The translations under genes and the position numbers were made by a program. The notes beneath the pieces were generated by a model. It worked only from the letters and a program-made list of their open reading frames with translations. It was not told where the DNA came from and ran no database searches. Shown piece after piece: positions 6,088 to 48,880 of a DNA stretch of 64,000 bases (positions within the stretch are counted from its first letter, which is position 1; each line of letters begins with the position of its first letter). Source of the stretch: Mesorhizobium loti (GTDB lineage Bacteria > Pseudomonadota > Alphaproteobacteria > Rhizobiales > Rhizobiaceae); contig NZ_CP033334.1 in NCBI RefSeq assembly GCF_013170705.1, positions 5,371,501 through 5,435,500 on the forward strand, read 5' to 3'.

Positions 6088-7350
6088 TCAGCCATTGTAG
6101 CGCTGGAATACAAGCGAAGCGTTTGTGCCGCCGAAGCCGAAGGAATTGGACAGGGCCACGTCGATCTGGCGGGAGCGAGGCTTGTTCGGCACCAGGTCGA
6201 TCGCGGTTTCACGCTCCGGGTTGTCGAGGTTGATGGTCGCCGGCGCGATATTGTCTCTGATCGCGAGGATCGAAAAGATCGCCTCGGCGGCACCAGCCGC
6301 CCCCAGCAGATGGCCGATCGACGACTTGGTCGACGACATCGAAATCTTCGACGCGGCATTGCCGACAAGCCGCTCGACGGCGCCGAGCTCGATCGTGTCG
6401 GCCATGGTCGAGGTGCCATGCGCGTTGATGTAGTCGACATCGGATGGCGCAAGCTTGGCCCGGTTCAACGCCGCCGTCATGCAACGGAAGGCGCCGTCGC
6501 CGTCTTCAGCCGGTGCGGTGATGTGATAGGCGTCGCCCGTGAGACCGTAGCCGGTCACCTCGGCATAGATTTTCGCCCCGCGCGCCTTGGCGTGCTCGAG
6601 CTCTTCGAGCACCACGACACCGGCGCCCTCGCCCATGACGAAGCCATCTCGGTCACGGTCATAGGGACGCGAGGCCGTCTGCGGCGTATCATTGCGCTCG
6701 GTCGACAGCGCCCGACAGGCGGCGAAGCCCGCGATCGACAGCCGCGTCACCGGCGCTTCGGCGCCACCGGCGACCATGACGTCGGCATCGCCCCACATGA
6801 TCAGCCGGGCAGCATCGCCAATGGCGTGCGCCCCGGTCGAACAGGCAGTGACGACGGCATGGTTGGGGCCTTTCAGCCCGTGCCGGATCGAAACCTGGCC
6901 AGAGACAAGATTGATGATCTGGCCCGGGATGAAGAAGGGGCTGATGCGGCGCGGACCGCGCTCCTTGAGGATGATCGCATTCTCGGCGATGCCCTCGATG
7001 CCGCCAATGCCGGAACCGATGAGCACGCCGGTGGCGCACTGCTCCTCATGCGTCTTGGGCTCCCAGCCGGAATCCTTCAGCGCCTCGTCGGCGGCGGCAA
7101 TCCCGTACAGGATGAAGTCGCCGATCTTGCGCAATTCCTTGGGCTCGAGCACGGCCTCTGGATTGAAGGTAGCATTGCTGCCGTCACCACGCGGAATGAC
7201 ATGGGCGACCTTGCAGGCAAGATCCTCCACCTCGAACTCGGTGATGCGCTTGGCGGCGCTGCGGCCGGTCAGAAGCTCCTTCCAGCTGTGCTCGAAGCCC
7301 ATGCCGAACGGCGACAACAACCCAAGGCCCGTGACGACGACACGCCTCAT
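6088..7350 (-). CDS. fabF: 3-oxoacyl-[acyl-carrier-protein] synthase II
   Basis: Elongating ketoacyl synthase of type II fatty acid synthesis, condensing acyl-ACP with malonyl-ACP. The Cys-His-His triad is complete: Cys170 in TACSTGAHA, His311 in NAHGTSTMAD and His346 in SSIGHLLGAAGA; the C-terminus carries SNSFGFGGTNASL. Length (420 residues) is standard. It follows acpP on the same strand with a 34-base gap, forming the fabD-fabG-acpP-fabF cluster. Confidence 0.97.
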   Translation of the reverse strand: MRRVVVTGLGLLSPFGMGFEHSWKELLTGRSAAKRITEFEVEDLACKVAHVIPRGDGSNATFNPEAVLEPKELRKIGDFILYGIAAADEALKDSGWEPKTHEEQCATGVLIGSGIGGIEGIAENAIILKERGPRRISPFFIPGQIINLVSGQVSIRHGLKGPNHAVVTACSTGAHAIGDAARLIMWGDADVMVAGGAEAPVTRLSIAGFAACRALSTERNDTPQTASRPYDRDRDGFVMGEGAGVVVLEELEHAKARGAKIYAEVTGYGLTGDAYHITAPAEDGDGAFRCMTAALNRAKLAPSDVDYINAHGTSTMADTIELGAVERLVGNAASKISMSSTKSSIGHLLGAAGAAEAIFSILAIRDNIAPATINLDNPERETAIDLVPNKPRSRQIDVALSNSFGFGGTNASLVFQRYNG

Positions 7351-7384
7351 CGCAGGTCCTCCCCGGTGATGACTGCGGAAAGCG

Positions 7385-7621
7385 TCAGGCCGAAGCCTTG
7401 TCGATGTACTTCACCGCATCGCCGACGGTCAGGATGGTCTCGGCCGCGTCGTCGGGAATCTCGACGCCAAACTCTTCTTCGAACGCCATGACGAGTTCGA
7501 CCGTATCGAGGCTGTCAGCGCCCAGATCATCGATGAAGCTCGCCTGCTCCGTCACTTTGTCGGCATCGACGCCAAGGTGCTCGATGACGATCTTCTTGAC
7601 GCGCTCTGCGGTGTCACTCAT
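7385..7621 (-). CDS. acpP: Acyl carrier protein
   Basis: A 78-residue acidic carrier protein. The phosphopantetheine attachment serine is in [20 protein letters not shown], at about residue 38. The start at [12 protein letters not shown] gives the usual AcpP length; the longer frame upstream adds unrelated sequence. It carries growing acyl chains between FabD, FabG and FabF, whose genes flank it. Confidence 0.97.
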
Positions 7622-7820
7622 TTGGGCATCCTCGTCTTTTGTTTGTCTGTCTTCGTTAGCGGGCAGAATGCCGCTAATCAAGCTGAAAGATGGTCCTGCC
7701 GGAAACGCAACGGCCACGGACCGGTTTTTGCCCGAACCGCCGGGTTGCGGGCCGCATTACACGAAAAATGGCCGAGGTCCAAGGTGAAATGGTCTCTTTT
7801 CACAACCCCGCCATGTCTGG

Positions 7821-8558
7821 TCAAATCATCGCCATGCCGCCGTTGACATGGATGGTCTGCCCGGTGACGTAGGCGGCTTCGTTGGAGGCGAGGTAGGCGA
7901 CGGCGGACGCCACTTCAACACTCGTGCCCATGCGGCGCGTCGGAATCGCCGCCATGATCGCCTCTTTCTGCTTGTCGTTGAGCTTGTCGGTCATCGCCGA
8001 TTCGATGAAGCCCGGGGCAACGCAGTTGACGGTGATGTTGCGGGTGGCGATCTCCTGCGCCAGCGACTTGGAGAAGCCGATCATGCCAGCCTTGGAGGCG
8101 CAATAGTTGGTTTGGCCGGGATTGCCGGTGACACCAACCACCGAGGTGATGTTGATGATGCGGCCATGGCGGCGGCGCATCATCGGATGGGTGAGTTCGC
8201 GCGTCAGCCGGAAAACGGCGGTCAGATTGACTTCGATCACGCTATCCCAATCGGCGTCCGACATGCGCACGAACAGCCCGTCCTTCGTAATGCCGGCATT
8301 GTTGACCAGGATGTCGACGCCTTCGAGATCGGCCTCCGCCTTCTGGCCAAGCGCCTTGACCTCGTCGCGATTCGACAGATTGGCCGGAAACAGCTTTACC
8401 CGGTCGCCGAGTTCGGCGGCCAGTGTTTCGAGTTTCTCGATGCGAGTGCCGTGCAGGCCGACAATGGCGCCTTGAGCATGCAGCACGCGGGCGATCGCCT
8501 CGCCGATGCCTCCCGATGCGCCGGTGACGAGCGCCTTGCGGCCGGTCAGTTCGAACAT
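7821..8558 (-). CDS. fabG: 3-oxoacyl-[acyl-carrier-protein] reductase
   Basis: NADPH-dependent short-chain reductase of the fatty acid elongation cycle. It shows the cofactor motif TGASGGIG (12-19), NNAG at 86-89, and the catalytic set Ser139, Tyr152 and Lys156 in TNYCASK; the C-terminus ends VTGQTIHVNGGMAMI as in FabG. The start at MFELTGRKA is supported by a CAGGAGAC ribosome-binding site a few bases upstream and gives 245 residues. A 200-base spacer separates it from acpP. Confidence 0.97.
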   Translation of the reverse strand: MFELTGRKALVTGASGGIGEAIARVLHAQGAIVGLHGTRIEKLETLAAELGDRVKLFPANLSNRDEVKALGQKAEADLEGVDILVNNAGITKDGLFVRMSDADWDSVIEVNLTAVFRLTRELTHPMMRRRHGRIINITSVVGVTGNPGQTNYCASKAGMIGFSKSLAQEIATRNITVNCVAPGFIESAMTDKLNDKQKEAIMAAIPTRRMGTSVEVASAVAYLASNEAAYVTGQTIHVNGGMAMI

Positions 8559-8617
8559 TTTTGTCTCCTGATCTGAGAAAACACCCTTCACACGGAAGGG
8601 GTCAAATCGCCAGTGTA

Positions 8618-9565
8618 TTATGCGAGTGCGGCCAGTGCCGCCTCAACATCGGCCGACGTGCCGATGGCTGATGTAGCGATATCGCGGTTGATGCGCCGGG
8701 CCAGGCCCGACAGCACCTTGCCGGCGCCGATCTCGTAAAGCGTCACAACGCCGTTGGCGCCGAACCATTCCACCGTTTCGCGCCAGCGCACGCGGCCGGT
8801 TATCTGCTCGACAAGGCGCCGGGCGATCTCATCCGGATCGCCGGTCGGTGTCACGGTGACGTTGGACACCACGGGAACCGCCGGCGCGTTCTTCGCCACC
8901 CCGGCGAGCGCATCGCGCATGACGTTCGCCGCCGGCGCCATCAAGGCGGAATGGAAGGGCGCCGAGACCTGCAGCATCAGCGCCCGCTTGGCGCCCTTTT
9001 CGGTGCACAGTTTCGCCGCCAGCTCAACCGCGGCCTTGGCGCCGGAGATGACCAGCTGGCCGCCGCCATTGTCATTGGCGATCTGACAGACCTTGCCGGA
9101 GCCTTGCGCGGCCTCGGTGCAAGCGGCTTCGACATCCTCCTGCTCCAGTCCGATGATCGCCGCCATGGCGCCCTCGCCGGCCGGCACCGCCGCCTGCATG
9201 GCGTTGCCACGAATGCGCAGCAGGCGGGCGGCATCGGCGACGGAAACAAAGCCGGCGGCGGCAAGGGCCGAATACTCGCCCAGCGAATGGCCGGCGACAT
9301 AGGCGACCTTGCCCTTCAGCGAGAAACCGCGCGCTTCCAGCGCCCTCACGGCGGCCAGCGAAACCGCCATCAGTGCCGGCTGCGCATTGGCGGTCAGCGT
9401 CAACGTCTCTTCCGGACCTTCCCAGATCAGCTTCGACAGGTTTTCGCCGAGCGCGTCGTCGACTTCCTGGAAGATCCTGCGCGCCTCCGGAAAGGCATCG
9501 GCAAGATCCTTGCCCATTCCGACAGCCTGGCTGCCTTGTCCCGGAAAGGTGAATGCGACGGCCAT
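8618..9565 (-). CDS. fabD: Malonyl-CoA:ACP transacylase
   Basis: Loads malonate from CoA onto ACP. The nucleophile elbow GHSLGEYSA places the catalytic Ser at 94, and His206 in SAPFHSALM completes the dyad; the N-terminal MAVAFTFPGQGSQ is the family hallmark. The frame stays open far upstream, but starting at this methionine gives 315 residues, the normal length. It is the first gene of the fabD-fabG-acpP-fabF-mltG-yicC-gmk run. Confidence 0.97.
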   Translation of the reverse strand: MAVAFTFPGQGSQAVGMGKDLADAFPEARRIFQEVDDALGENLSKLIWEGPEETLTLTANAQPALMAVSLAAVRALEARGFSLKGKVAYVAGHSLGEYSALAAAGFVSVADAARLLRIRGNAMQAAVPAGEGAMAAIIGLEQEDVEAACTEAAQGSGKVCQIANDNGGGQLVISGAKAAVELAAKLCTEKGAKRALMLQVSAPFHSALMAPAANVMRDALAGVAKNAPAVPVVSNVTVTPTGDPDEIARRLVEQITGRVRWRETVEWFGANGVVTLYEIGAGKVLSGLARRINRDIATSAIGTSADVEAALAALA

Positions 9566-44507: not shown

Positions 44508-44617
44508 TTTTTCTCCAAAATACCTAGTCTCATCAGGTCTCAACTTTAGCCTAATCAGTCTTGGACAGTCTGACCAGCCAGAGGCGATGGTCGGCCATCC
44601 CACCAAAGGAGACCGAA

Positions 44618-44908
44618 ATGCAGTTCTTTACCCTTCTCACCCGTAACACCGCAAAGTTCAGCGACGCCGACTTTGCGCCGCTTCTGCCGAGCGAGGCCGA
44701 GCAAAGGCGCACGCTCTACGCCGAAGGCGCGGTGCGCCAGGTCTGGAACCGAGGCGACATTCCCGGCAGCGGCATGATGTTCGAGGCATCCGACGATGCC
44801 GAGGTGCGCGGCCATCTCGCTACCTTGCCGCTGATTAAGGCCGGCATGATGGAGATCGCCGCGATCGTGCCGCTCAATCCCTATCCGGGATTTGGGCCGA
44901 AGCGGTGA
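44618..44908 (+). CDS. Muconolactone isomerase-like small protein
   Basis: A 96-residue protein: LTRNTAKFSDADFAPLLPSE at the start and ATLPLIKAGMMEIAAIVPL near the end. The size and fold pattern match the muconolactone delta-isomerase/YCII-like ferredoxin fold. No other beta-ketoadipate genes are nearby, so the exact substrate is doubtful. AAAGGAGACC precedes the ATG. Its likely regulator is the divergent LysR. Confidence 0.75.
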   Translation: MQFFTLLTRNTAKFSDADFAPLLPSEAEQRRTLYAEGAVRQVWNRGDIPGSGMMFEASDDAEVRGHLATLPLIKAGMMEIAAIVPLNPYPGFGPKR

Positions 44909-45040
44909 ATCGCATCGGACGGCGCTCTCCGACAGCCACCGGTCGAGCGGCAATTTAGCGTTCGGGGACGCTCCGGCGATTTCCATTTGCGGCGAGTCTC
45001 CTGATTGGTTATCGGGAAGATGGGCAAAGGGGAGTTGACG

Positions 45041-46117
45041 GTGGCGCACAGAAGAGGCGGCGATGCGGAGCGCGCTCCACGCGCTTCCGTCGTCATGACC
45101 GTCTATACGGACCAGCGCTTTCTCGATGCCGCGGTCAACAGCATCCTGACCCAGGAATTCGACGATCTCGAACTCATTATCGTCGATGACGGGACCGGCC
45201 AGGACGCGGTCTTCCAGGAGCTGGCACGTCGCGATCCGCGCATCCGGCTGATCATCAATCCAACCAATCTCGGTACCGCCGCCGCCGCCAACCGCGGCAT
45301 CGAGGCCGCCCGAGGCGAAATCATCCTCCGCCTCGACGCGGATGATGTCGCCGAGCCGACGCATGTCGGACGACTGGTCGCGGCGCTGGACGAGGACAGC
45401 GAGCTTGGCCTCGTTGGACACGCGGTGACGCTGATCGACGAAGCTGACCGCGTCGTGGGTGCGCAACGCATGCCCGAGACGGATCTGGAGATTCGCTGGA
45501 CGATCCTGTTCCACAATCCCTTCTACCATTCGACGATCGCCTACCGCCGGGGTTGCTTCGAGGCCGCCGGACGCTACAGGATCGATGAACTGGTTTCGCA
45601 GGACCATTATCTGTGGTTCGACATGCTGCCTTTGTGCCGGGCGCGAAATCTTGCCGAACCGCTGACGCGCTACCGGCTGAACGCACTCGGGCTGACCGCG
45701 ACAAATGCAGCGAATGCCCGCAATCGCACGCATCCGATCCGCCAGGCATCATGGGCTCGCCTTGGCTTGACCTATGACCTCTATGACGACGCTTTCGCCC
45801 AGGATCTCACCCGGTTCATCCGCGGGCAAGTGATCGCCGTCGACCGACGCGCCGCCGCCTACAGCAAGTTGCTTGGCGTACTCAAGGCCTTCCTTGCAGC
45901 GTCGCGGCCCTTCAGGCGCACGGAGGATGCGGTTGCTGCAAGGCAGCTGACCCATGGCATCATCGCGCGCATGCTCGCCAACCCGCCGCCGGGCCTCACG
46001 GGGAAGCTGCGCGTCTGCCATCTGTGCTGGCCGCTCGACTGGCGCGCCGCAACGGGTGCGGCGACAAAACGGCTGGCGATCAGGCTCAAGGCGTGGCTGC
46101 CCAAAACAGGCGGATGA
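45041..46117 (+). CDS. Family 2 glycosyltransferase
   Basis: A protein of about 358 residues with a GT-A domain: ASVVMTVYTDQRFLDAAVNS, LELIIVDDGTGQD and EIILRLDADDVAEP give the nucleotide-sugar and metal-binding (DADD) motifs. The C-terminal third is less typical and ends in a basic stretch. It should transfer a sugar onto a surface glycan or its lipid carrier. Start choice is uncertain: GTG at 45041 has GGGGAG six bases upstream; ATG at 45020 and TTG at 45005 are in frame. The three-domain gene follows after ~50 bases in the same direction. Confidence 0.88.
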   Translation: MAHRRGGDAERAPRASVVMTVYTDQRFLDAAVNSILTQEFDDLELIIVDDGTGQDAVFQELARRDPRIRLIINPTNLGTAAAANRGIEAARGEIILRLDADDVAEPTHVGRLVAALDEDSELGLVGHAVTLIDEADRVVGAQRMPETDLEIRWTILFHNPFYHSTIAYRRGCFEAAGRYRIDELVSQDHYLWFDMLPLCRARNLAEPLTRYRLNALGLTATNAANARNRTHPIRQASWARLGLTYDLYDDAFAQDLTRFIRGQVIAVDRRAAAYSKLLGVLKAFLAASRPFRRTEDAVAARQLTHGIIARMLANPPPGLTGKLRVCHLCWPLDWRAATGAATKRLAIRLKAWLPKTGG

Positions 46118-46171: not shown

Positions 46172-48880
46172 ATGGACCCTGACTATTCTGCGTGGTTTGC
46201 CGGCAAGAGCCTTTCGACCGACTGGACTTCGGGCTTCTTTCCCCTATGGGCCACACTGCTCCGGTCGCGCCGCGACGAGCCCCTCGATGTCTTGGAGATC
46301 GGCTCCTGGGAGGGCCGTTCCGCGCTCTTCTTTCTCAACTATTTCGGCAAGTGCCGGCTCACATGCATCGATACATTCGGTGGCAGTCCTGAACACACCC
46401 AGCGGCGGAAGTGGAGCGACCAGCTTGCGCATGTCGAGCAACGCTTCGACAAGAATCTCGCCGCGTTCGGCGAACGGATCGAGACGATCAAAAGCCCCTC
46501 GTCCCAGGCATTGGCCCGCCTGATCACCGACGAGCGGCGTTTCGACCTCGTCTATGTTGATGGCAGCCATCACAGTGCCGACGTCCAGTCGGATGCGGTG
46601 CTATGCTGGCCGATGGTAGAGGATGGCGGGATCGTCATTTTCGACGATTACGAATGGACGTTCTTTGCCAGCAAGGTCGAGCGTCCAAAACTCGGGATCG
46701 ACAGTTTCCTGTCGGTGCATGCCGGCCAATACCGCGAGTTGTACCGGGGAGAACAAATCATCATCCAGAAGATCGGCGTCGGCGGGAACGAGCGCCCGGC
46801 AGTTTCCACTCGGCCATCTCCTTTACCGCGCGAAGAACCCGTCGACAGACCCCAAGCCGAAAACGACGTCGAGTTCGTGCTGATTGCCGAAGCTGGCATT
46901 CTCGAGGCCCAGGCCCTGCTGCTATGCGAAAGCATAAGGTGTTTCGCCGGCTCTTATTCGCAATCCCCGATAACGGTGGTTTCACCCAGAAGCAGCCGCC
47001 GTCCCTCGCCGTCGACGGTAGATCGGCTCCAGCAACTGGGCGTGGACTATCTGCCCATCGAGATCGACAGCTGCTGTCCGCAATACGGCCCCTCATACCG
47101 GATACATTCCCTCGCTTACGCCGAAAGACGGGCCGGACCGCCGGTCATCATCCAGCTTGACAGCGATGCGATATTCATCGCGGAGCCCGACTTCTCGTTG
47201 GGCACGTGCTCCGCCGCCGCCCGCCCGGTGGACAGCAAGGGGATGTGCACCACAGGCCCTGGTGACCCGTTCGACCCCTACTGGAGACAGCTATGCGCCC
47301 TTGCCGGTGTCGACTACGAACACCTGCCCATCGTGCGCACGAGCGTGAACGGCCTGGCTGTTCGCGCCAGCTACAATGGCGGGCTCATCGCCGCAAAAAG
47401 GGCGAGTGGCCTCTTTCAGCGCACCGAGGACATTTTCAGAAGGTTGGTGGACGCCAATATGAAACCATGGGCCGGCGCCGAGCCAGTCTACAACACCGGG
47501 ACCGGCATTTTGCAGGGAGATGCCACGGCCTTCTGGGGCACAAGCCAGGCCGCCTTCTCACTGGCAGCCGTTGCCGGAAACCATTCCGTGCGGCTTTTAC
47601 CGGCGACCCATAATTTTCCGCTTCACAACTTCAATCCCGCCACGGCGCCAGACCCGGCCCGGCTGGTTCATATTCACTATCATGGATTGTTCAACGAGGG
47701 TTCCGCTGCAGCGAACCCTATCCTGGACGGAACGCTGGCGTTGCCTGCGGGAATACGCGAATGGCTTGAAGCCCGGTTACCCTTGCGGGAAGCCCCGCGT
47801 CCGGCCGCGTCGATACCGGGCCGCGCGCGCCACTCCCGGAGAAAAGCGATCCTCGTGCTTGGAATGCACCGCAGCGGAACCTCGATGCTTGCCGGCACCA
47901 TCGCCGCGTTGGGATCAGCCCCTCCCAAAAAGCCATTGCGCGCGGACGGCAACAATCCCAGGGGGTACTGGGAAAGCGCCCCGCTCAATTCCGCTAATAA
48001 TGAGCTGCTAGCGGCGGCGGCGTCCTCGTGGCATGACTGGCGGCCGCTTGATCCGCAATGGCTGCAATCGCCTGCGGCGGAGCGTCACCGCCACAAGATC
48101 AAGGCGATCCTTGCAAGCGAGTTTGGCGATCAACCGCTGTTTTTCATCAAGGATCCCAGGATCTGCCGGTTCGTTCCGTTCATGTCATCGATCCTTGCCG
48201 AGATGGAGATCGACCCGGTGGCCCTGCTTCCGCTCCGCAACCCTCTCGAGGTCGCTTGCTCGCTGGAGCGGCGGGATGGGTTGCCCCTGGCAAAATCCCT
48301 TTTGCTCTGGCTCAGGCACGTGCTCGATGCGGAATTTCATTCGCGACACATGCCACGTTGTTTCATTCGCCACGAACGCTTCCTGATCGACTGGCGACAT
48401 CATGTCGACGTTGCGGCGGAGATGACCGCCATCACCTGGCCAATACCTTCCGACCAGGCGGAGATGGAGATAGGGCGTTTCCTGACAGCGGACCTGCATC
48501 ATGAACGGGCAACAATCGTGGAATTGCGGAGCCATCGGAATGTGACACCGCTGGTCCGCGCCGCCTACGACATTCTATGTACCATGGCAGACGAAGGCGA
48601 CAGCCAGGAATTGCGCGACGAGCTGGACCTGATGCGAGCGAAATTCGATGACGCATGCGATGTCGTGGGCGCCGCCGTGGCCGCGGAGGCAGACCATCTA
48701 CGCGGCGAACGCGACGCAATCAGCCGCGCCTATCAAGAGCTCGGCCTCGAACGGAACGCATTGGCGCACGATCGAAACCGTTTCGTTTCCAAGCGCGCCG
48801 TACTTTTGGCATCGTCGAGTTGGCGACGATTGACGACCCCGTTGCGATGGATGCGCAGTCCATCCAAGCGTCAAAAATGA
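46172..48880 (+). CDS. Three-domain fusion: methyltransferase - glycosyltransferase-like - sulfotransferase-like
   Basis: A 902-residue protein. Domain 1 (about 1-205) is a class I methyltransferase: VLEIGSWEGRS (40-50), CIDTFGGS, and FDLVYVDGSHHSADV (124-138). Domain 2 (about 230-510) has a GT-A-like core with the metal motif IIQLDSDAIFIAEPDF (326-341) and WAGAEPVYNTGTG. Domain 3 (about 555-780) is a sulfotransferase-family P-loop domain: VLGMHRSGTSMLAG (562-575) for the PAPS 5'-phosphosulfate and LPLRNPLEVACSLERRDG (686-703) for the 3'-phosphate. A helical, probably coiled-coil tail ends SSSWRRLTTPLRWM, a motif seen at the ends of surface-polysaccharide enzymes. It follows a GT2 gene. Codons such as CTA, ATA and AGG are more frequent than in neighbours, hinting at transfer. 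Acceptor unknown; each activity is by homology only. Confidence 0.8.
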   Translation: MDPDYSAWFAGKSLSTDWTSGFFPLWATLLRSRRDEPLDVLEIGSWEGRSALFFLNYFGKCRLTCIDTFGGSPEHTQRRKWSDQLAHVEQRFDKNLAAFGERIETIKSPSSQALARLITDERRFDLVYVDGSHHSADVQSDAVLCWPMVEDGGIVIFDDYEWTFFASKVERPKLGIDSFLSVHAGQYRELYRGEQIIIQKIGVGGNERPAVSTRPSPLPREEPVDRPQAENDVEFVLIAEAGILEAQALLLCESIRCFAGSYSQSPITVVSPRSSRRPSPSTVDRLQQLGVDYLPIEIDSCCPQYGPSYRIHSLAYAERRAGPPVIIQLDSDAIFIAEPDFSLGTCSAAARPVDSKGMCTTGPGDPFDPYWRQLCALAGVDYEHLPIVRTSVNGLAVRASYNGGLIAAKRASGLFQRTEDIFRRLVDANMKPWAGAEPVYNTGTGILQGDATAFWGTSQAAFSLAAVAGNHSVRLLPATHNFPLHNFNPATAPDPARLVHIHYHGLFNEGSAAANPILDGTLALPAGIREWLEARLPLREAPRPAASIPGRARHSRRKAILVLGMHRSGTSMLAGTIAALGSAPPKKPLRADGNNPRGYWESAPLNSANNELLAAAASSWHDWRPLDPQWLQSPAAERHRHKIKAILASEFGDQPLFFIKDPRICRFVPFMSSILAEMEIDPVALLPLRNPLEVACSLERRDGLPLAKSLLLWLRHVLDAEFHSRHMPRCFIRHERFLIDWRHHVDVAAEMTAITWPIPSDQAEMEIGRFLTADLHHERATIVELRSHRNVTPLVRAAYDILCTMADEGDSQELRDELDLMRAKFDDACDVVGAAVAAEADHLRGERDAISRAYQELGLERNALAHDRNRFVSKRAVLLASSSWRRLTTPLRWMRSPSKRQK

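Follow-up and report, generated by a model that had tools for sequence, protein, structure and literature searches.

WbdD, the chain terminator of the Escherichia coli O9a O-antigen, begins with a methyltransferase and a second catalytic domain, which a coiled-coil spacer separates from the C-terminal membrane/recruitment region (PMC3482155; PMC11231755). The ORF6 protein of Klebsiella pneumoniae O7 and the terminator-polymerase proteins of O12 are likewise described as multiple catalytic modules around a coiled coil, with a module distribution that depends on the system, and coiled-coil terminators are known for methyl, methyl-phosphate and 3-deoxy-D-manno-oct-2-ulosonic acid (Kdo) caps (PMC11231755). 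Rhizobial surface polysaccharides are held to be necessary for symbiosis (PMC4072884), and sulfated surface polysaccharides have been reported for Mesorhizobium loti (PMC5498481; PMC11625862). The subject here is a 64,000-nucleotide stretch of the M. loti genome (assembly GCF_013170705.1, contig NZ_CP033334.1, positions 5,371,501 to 5,435,500; hereafter the window), in which a single open reading frame (ORF) joins a methyltransferase (MT), a glycosyltransferase-like middle domain (GTmid) and a predicted sulfotransferase (ST) to a spacer and a basic C-terminal tail with a motif of the type SxSWRxTxPLR (the SWR tail), and follows a gene for a GT2 glycosyltransferase. Multi-enzyme coiled-coil terminators are already known; none that includes a sulfotransferase and GTmid was encountered in literature searches, whose results were partly judged from listings alone, and the word sulfotransferase does not occur in the main text of PMC11231755.

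The window protein resembles WbdD in that an N-terminal methyltransferase is followed by further catalysis and then by a spacer and a C-terminal region; in place of the kinase of WbdD it carries GTmid and ST, and Pfam gave no kinase match. WbdD works with an ABC exporter, whereas none lies near the window unit, although relatives of the unit have one. The methyl-phosphate chemistry of K. pneumoniae O7 also differs from that expected of the window unit (PMC11231755). KpsS, a sulfotransferase of M. loti, comes from the same genus and sulfates a surface polysaccharide; no fusion is mentioned for it in the passages concerned (PMC11625862). Because the window protein combines a WbdD-like layout with other chemistry, a glycan-decorating role at the membrane is preferred, in which the GT2 protein and the fusion would most likely provide a surface glycan with a residue, terminal or lateral, and decorate it. 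More specifically, we consider it probable, if only just, that the two genes form one glycan-finishing unit, through which a lipid-linked surface polysaccharide receives a cap or side group that is methylated and sulfated. The unit is laid out as follows:

45005..46117, + strand: GT2 glycosyltransferase gene (P0002), the fusion partner; PF00535, E=1.5e-27
46172..48880, + strand: fusion ORF, MT - GTmid - ST - spacer - SWR tail; 902 aa, intact
46172..46807, + strand: MT domain, aa 1-212; PF13578; motifs VDGSHH and FDDYEW
46841..47806, + strand: GTmid domain, aa 224-545; likeness to GT-A seen in motifs only (DxD, aa 330-332), without a Pfam family
47822..48691, + strand: ST domain, aa 551-840; motifs GMHRSGTS and RNPLEV..S
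48650..48811, + strand: short heptad-like spacer, 54 aa when counted from an anchor point in the last part of ST up to the tail
48812..48877, + strand: basic SWR tail, 22 aa, charge +7

The source genome consists of one contig of 6.87 Mb, in which the whole fusion protein has a single match; its closest named matches are Mesorhizobium records, and no match was obtained against NCBIfam. The ORF starts at ATG 46172 or at a GTG three codons earlier (46163), its stop codon ends at 48880, and SSSWRRLTTPLRW occupies aa 881-893. A sequence-only reading of the window had described three enzyme domains joined in one protein, which agrees with the intact ORF, the Pfam match of MT and the motifs of ST and GTmid. 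The MT domain passes the cut-off of PF13578 (Methyltransf_24; aa 41-160, E=5.2e-21, 75.9 bits versus 26.3). Its best PDB sequence matches are weak (3ssm, E=2.8e-4; 8ia9, E=0.016), in an alignment that spans the DGSH and following D motifs, and belong to the sugar O-methyltransferases MycE/TylF, which act on macrolide sugars and, unlike the window MT, are not joined to a GTmid or an ST.

Against PF13469 (Sulfotransfer_3), the window ST reaches E=0.073 and 13.7 bits with a cut-off of 27; 27 of the 31 aligned ST rows, the window row included, match at E<=0.1 (best, 6.8e-8). The motifs GMHRSGTS and RNPLEV..S, which we take to be the 5'-phosphosulfate loop and the 3'-phosphate motif, are kept across these 31 rows with few exceptions, and their core residues are invariant. 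Both motifs point to a sulfotransferase of the type that uses 3'-phosphoadenosine 5'-phosphosulfate (PAPS). PAPS production requires adenosine 5'-phosphosulfate (APS) kinase, and an APS kinase gene is present in the own genome. GTmid bears the motifs LDSD, YNGG, SQAAFSLAA and HIHYH. In an eight-row alignment that extends to relatives at 23-26% identity, both aspartates of the DxD, G178, D194, Q233, N255 and HYH (domain numbering) are invariant; in a 12-row alignment, Y277, H278 and D194 no longer are. Because GTmid has conserved motifs and no Pfam match, we infer its label from the DxD and the other motifs, which suggest a glycosyltransferase of the GT-A type.

The fusion recurs, and its parts are shuffled. 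In a one-genome-per-species collection, relatives of near full length and 65-87% identity occur in four other records. Among 146 genomes of the genus (G and L numbers designate genomes and the stretches compared), 69 match some portion of the fusion protein, at least 13 contain a close GTmid, and eight encode MT-GTmid-ST-tail in one frame (G000, which is the own genome, G403, G421, G507, G486, G417, G411 and G513); the fusion of M. huakuii NBRC 15243 (L002) is also intact in one frame through the tail. G411 joins GT2-MT-GTmid-ST-tail in a single ORF of 1321 aa, G437 has a GTmid-ST-tail version, and G438 and G442 have a GT2-GTmid-tail version. Because related species combine the same parts in different ways, the fusion has the look of a functioning modular design and not of an accident. 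The possibility raised in the sequence-only reading, that a stop codon was lost in this genome only, is ruled out by the intact recurrence of the same open fusion across several species, and the search for the same architecture elsewhere, which that reading had proposed, thus found it. Within the order, GTmid was found in only two of 297 genomes, the own genome included.

The GT2 gene belongs to the fusion unit, as judged by co-occurrence and in-frame joining. Its stop codon lies 54 bp before the ATG of the fusion, and a GT2 match at E<=1e-60 occurs in 12 of the 146 genomes, all within the 13 with a close GTmid, G437 being without it; in G411, G438 and G442, GT2 and the unit share a single frame. 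The GT2 match directly before the fusion of M. huakuii NBRC 15243 (L002:2936-3685) covers residues 1-250 only and is apparently shortened.

More distant relatives have the modules in other arrangements. In a metagenome-assembled genome of the Hyphomicrobiales (L006), separate neighbouring genes encode an epimerase, MT (68%), GT2 (69%), ST (34%), GTmid (63%) and a protein of the GT4 type, and the ST (tree row L009) falls outside the close ST clade. On plasmid unnamed2 of Rhodobacter sp. CZR27, overlapping genes encode a relative of GT2 (60%) and one of GTmid (36%), the latter annotated as a hypothetical protein. The surface-polysaccharide setting assumed in the sequence-only reading was thus recovered in relatives, namely in the four modules encoded side by side in the Hyphomicrobiales genome and in the exopolysaccharide (EPS)-type locus of Rhodobacter. 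Two Mesorhizobium genomes, G463 and G472, have a remote GTmid (~25%) joined to a different sulfotransferase (matches to Sulfotransfer_3 at E=1.9e-13 and 5.5e-13), which is not among the rows of the ST tree. Because the genes of L006 and these fusions use other kinds of ST, GTmid and sulfotransferases have been combined in more than one way. Among plasmid records, 47 match parts of the fusion protein, and none of the best 40 exceeds 80% coverage; phage records, searched with the 34-aa tail as query, gave no match. On these grounds, an origin of the fusion from a plasmid or phage was rejected.

The relatives also link the unit to ABC exporters. In the ST tree, 12 fused and six stand-alone rows form one clade (18 rows) separate from the other 34 with a support of 100/100, and within it the stand-alone rows form a clade of their own (100/100); the tree does not settle how the fused groups branched and neither supports nor excludes a single origin of the fusion. 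Stand-alone genes of the form ST-spacer-tail lie directly beside a gene for a Wzt-type ATPase in five of seven loci (L158, L160, L161, L162 and L163, among L158-L164; the seventh, from G417, is outside the tree). L160, the one locus scanned with Pfam, contains PGM/PMM, GT2, ABC2_membrane, ABC_tran, the ST gene, which has no Pfam match of its own, and RgpF-type genes; the neighbours of ST on its two sides include genes of the wzm, wzt and RgpF types. Both remote GTmid-ST fusions (G463 and G472; L113:9010-10818 and L165 ~7347-9122, - strand) have a Wzt-type gene ~0.6 kb upstream. At E<=1e-12, the G463 locus gives the only wzm/wzt match among 33 comparison sources (333 kb, a total that counts the window itself and, for one contig, two copies that overlap). 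The own genome has only one other clear SWR match (E=4.3e-4; 150 of 234 candidates scored), located in a methyltransferase-spacer protein as an internal STSWKLAAPIR, 109 aa before the end. This protein is encoded in an operon-like row, which also holds the only Wzt_C match of the genome:

G000:C1:5615995-5622375 (L144:2996-9376): wzm, wzt, methyltransferase-spacer-SWR and two-GT4 genes; O-antigen-type

The whole row reads PGM/PMM, ManC, two GDP-mannose dehydratase-like genes, wzm, wzt (Wzt_C), methyltransferase-spacer-SWR and a two-GT4 protein, and the last three genes overlap successively by 4 bp. It resembles the wbdD-wbdA layout of E. coli O9a, the SWR protein taking the position of WbdD.

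The tail motif follows a heptad-like stretch behind ST. Spacer length ranges from 40 to 131 aa among the fused copies and from 106 to 190 aa among the stand-alone ones. In L004 (10560-10821), L051 (2538-2788) and L054 (1184-1455), the spacers consist of 42-bp tandem repeats, that is, units of 14 aa or two heptads (6.2, 6.0 and 6.5 copies; 0% indels), with consensus units that differ; Tandem Repeats Finder detected no 42-bp repeat in the window. The spacer length modulo 7 equals 5 in 10 of 11 fused rows (the exception being L046) and 1 in all six stand-alone rows; these rows are related, contig duplicates were merged, the frame-broken L047 is counted among the 10, and the frame-broken L041 as well as L048 and L049, which lack ST, were left out. 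This phase is no proof of selection, because a 42-bp repeat unit alone gives such phases.

A profile of the tail matches 19 of 199 genomes of the order at E<=0.01, the own genome included. According to Pfam, ten proteins with the SWR motif include five methyltransferases (one also with RgpF), one Sulfotransfer_2 and one DUF707 protein. Behind ST, the motif occurs in 27 of 52 distinct ST-bearing ORFs, some of which are cut by the end of the locus (11 of 12 fused, six of six stand-alone and 10 of 34 remote). In the 10 remote proteins, the motif is internal and in eight is followed by a WbsX, RgpF or GT2 domain. The idea that the tail marks surface-polysaccharide enzymes therefore fits most, though not all, of the cases examined. 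A literature search with six spellings of the motif gave no publication. The 10 remote proteins with an internal motif behind ST and spacer are those of L012, L056-L059, L063, L007 and L037, and those of L022 and L033, which lack a Pfam match. As a separate observation, L088:1486-2760 (- strand) encodes a spacer-SWR protein with NHL repeats.

In the window, the unit is flanked by genes of other kinds:

44561..44908, + strand: MIase gene, left flank; PF02426
48986..50032, + strand: CorA gene, right flank; PF01544

The order MIase-GT2-fusion-CorA, or a short form of it, is found in L002, L003, L004, L005, L117 and L072. When 18 CorA loci other than the own one were compared, the MIase and CorA matches lay 140-180 bp apart with nothing between them in L123, L125 and L138, LDC adjoined CorA in L122, L124 and L137, and L132 showed a partial MIase; the remaining loci had no left-flank gene close by within 1.5 kb, and neither flank was found in the stretches of G411 and G437 (L115 and L116). 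Because MIase and CorA adjoin elsewhere without it, the GT2-fusion pair looks like a two-gene insert between them, which some members of the genus carry at the same place in the chromosome. Separately, a perfect 8-bp tandem repeat (7.8 copies) was noted between the LDC and LysR genes of L004 (5334-5395).

A feasible model of the glycan-finishing unit may be as follows. GT2 and GTmid, working on the cytoplasmic side of the inner membrane, would attach one or two sugars to a surface polysaccharide of the O-antigen or capsule type that is linked to a lipid; MT would O-methylate and ST would sulfate the added residue or residues, yielding a chain whose cap or side group is both methylated and sulfated. 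The spacer, possibly a coiled coil, and the basic SWR tail may keep the active sites a defined distance away from the membrane or polymerase, as in WbdD-type terminators. That the group is a cap rather than a side chain is suggested by the relatives and not by the window. If so, the unit would provide candidate genes for a methylated, sulfated glycan, with natural module swaps on hand for testing, and the idea of coiled-coil terminators may extend to sulfate caps. The unit also brings to light a domain that resembles glycosyltransferases and for which Pfam has no model, as well as a tail motif that recurs. A bolder proposal, which we put forward as tentative and doubtful, is that sulfation is a chain-terminating reaction in bacterial ABC-transporter-dependent glycans. 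ST-spacer-SWR proteins would then stand in the place of WbdD by wzm-wzt, the repeat-built spacer (42-bp units, changing mostly by whole heptads) would set chain length, and the window protein would be a one-chain elaboration that adds, methylates and sulfates the cap. If this were true, the glycan finishing enzymes of these alphaproteobacteria would have in spacer-SWR a general docking module that has not been described before.

Several observations weigh against a capping unit of this kind. Queries from the exporter operon of the own genome gave no match in the window at E<=1e-12, two of the seven stand-alone ST loci (L159 and L164) have only a remote ABC ATPase 4-5 kb off, and outside Mesorhizobium the SWR motif lies near wzt in three of 13 stretches (L147, L152, weakly, and L157). 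These stretches (L145-L157) represent 14 places of the tail profile that show the motif, leaving out L109, an apparent chance frame, and rows without the motif; L154 contains relatives of the own methyltransferase-spacer protein and its GT4 partner, nine others have neither, and the link between SWR and wzt is thus patchy and mixed there. Among the ten SWR-motif proteins, one has NHL repeats without a sugar-enzyme match and two gave no informative match. Furthermore, GTmid has neither a Pfam family nor a credible PDB sequence match, the window spacer is short, and the hydrophobic moment of the window tail is reached by 15% of shuffles and is not significant. On this measure, the window tail does not show up as a clear amphipathic helix; the tails of some relatives have strong moments. 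The Rhodobacter GT2-GTmid pair lies in an EPS-/flippase-type locus among export, autokinase, flippase and glycosyltransferase genes, and two copies of the fusion are frame-broken, G524 (L047) inside GTmid and G413 (L041) near the C-terminus, although these breaks could be sequencing errors.

The setting in Rhodobacter, the short spacer and the lack of a nearby exporter suit the main rival explanation, in which the same activities would decorate a side chain of the repeat unit of a Wzx/Wzy-type exopolysaccharide, with the spacer and tail serving as a membrane tether and having no role in chain end or length. This explanation is rather unlikely; against it stand the stand-alone ST-spacer-tail relatives by ABC exporters in five of seven loci, the other SWR protein of the own genome, whose gene overlaps wzt, and the Wzt-type gene near both remote GTmid-ST fusions. 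A small glycolipid or a protein glycan may instead be the target; the position of the two-gene insert amid unrelated genes without an exporter of its own fits such a substrate, as does the best PDB match of MT to MycE, the substrate of which is a macrolide sugar. Nevertheless, the relatives with readable surroundings lie in polysaccharide-type loci, save the orthologues at the MIase-CorA site, and a non-polymeric target seems improbable. It is quite improbable that one or more domains have lost catalysis and that the fusion serves as a scaffold or represents a gene in decay: the frame breaks of G524 and G413, the module losses of G437, G438 and G442 and the weak Pfam score of the window ST could be read in this way, but those aligned copies that are intact retain the ST motifs, the DxD and the MT motifs. 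Relative to the sequence-only reading, the analysis adds the GT2 gene upstream, the variable spacer before the tail and the stand-alone ST-spacer-tail genes by ABC exporters.

The codon pattern of the fusion ORF had been thought foreign to its surroundings, which the comparison does not support: its codon distance is 0.126, with a median of 0.133 for 40 hand-picked ORFs, some of them probably spurious. Its GC content at third codon positions is 0.71, within the comparison range of 0.62-0.86 (median 0.78).

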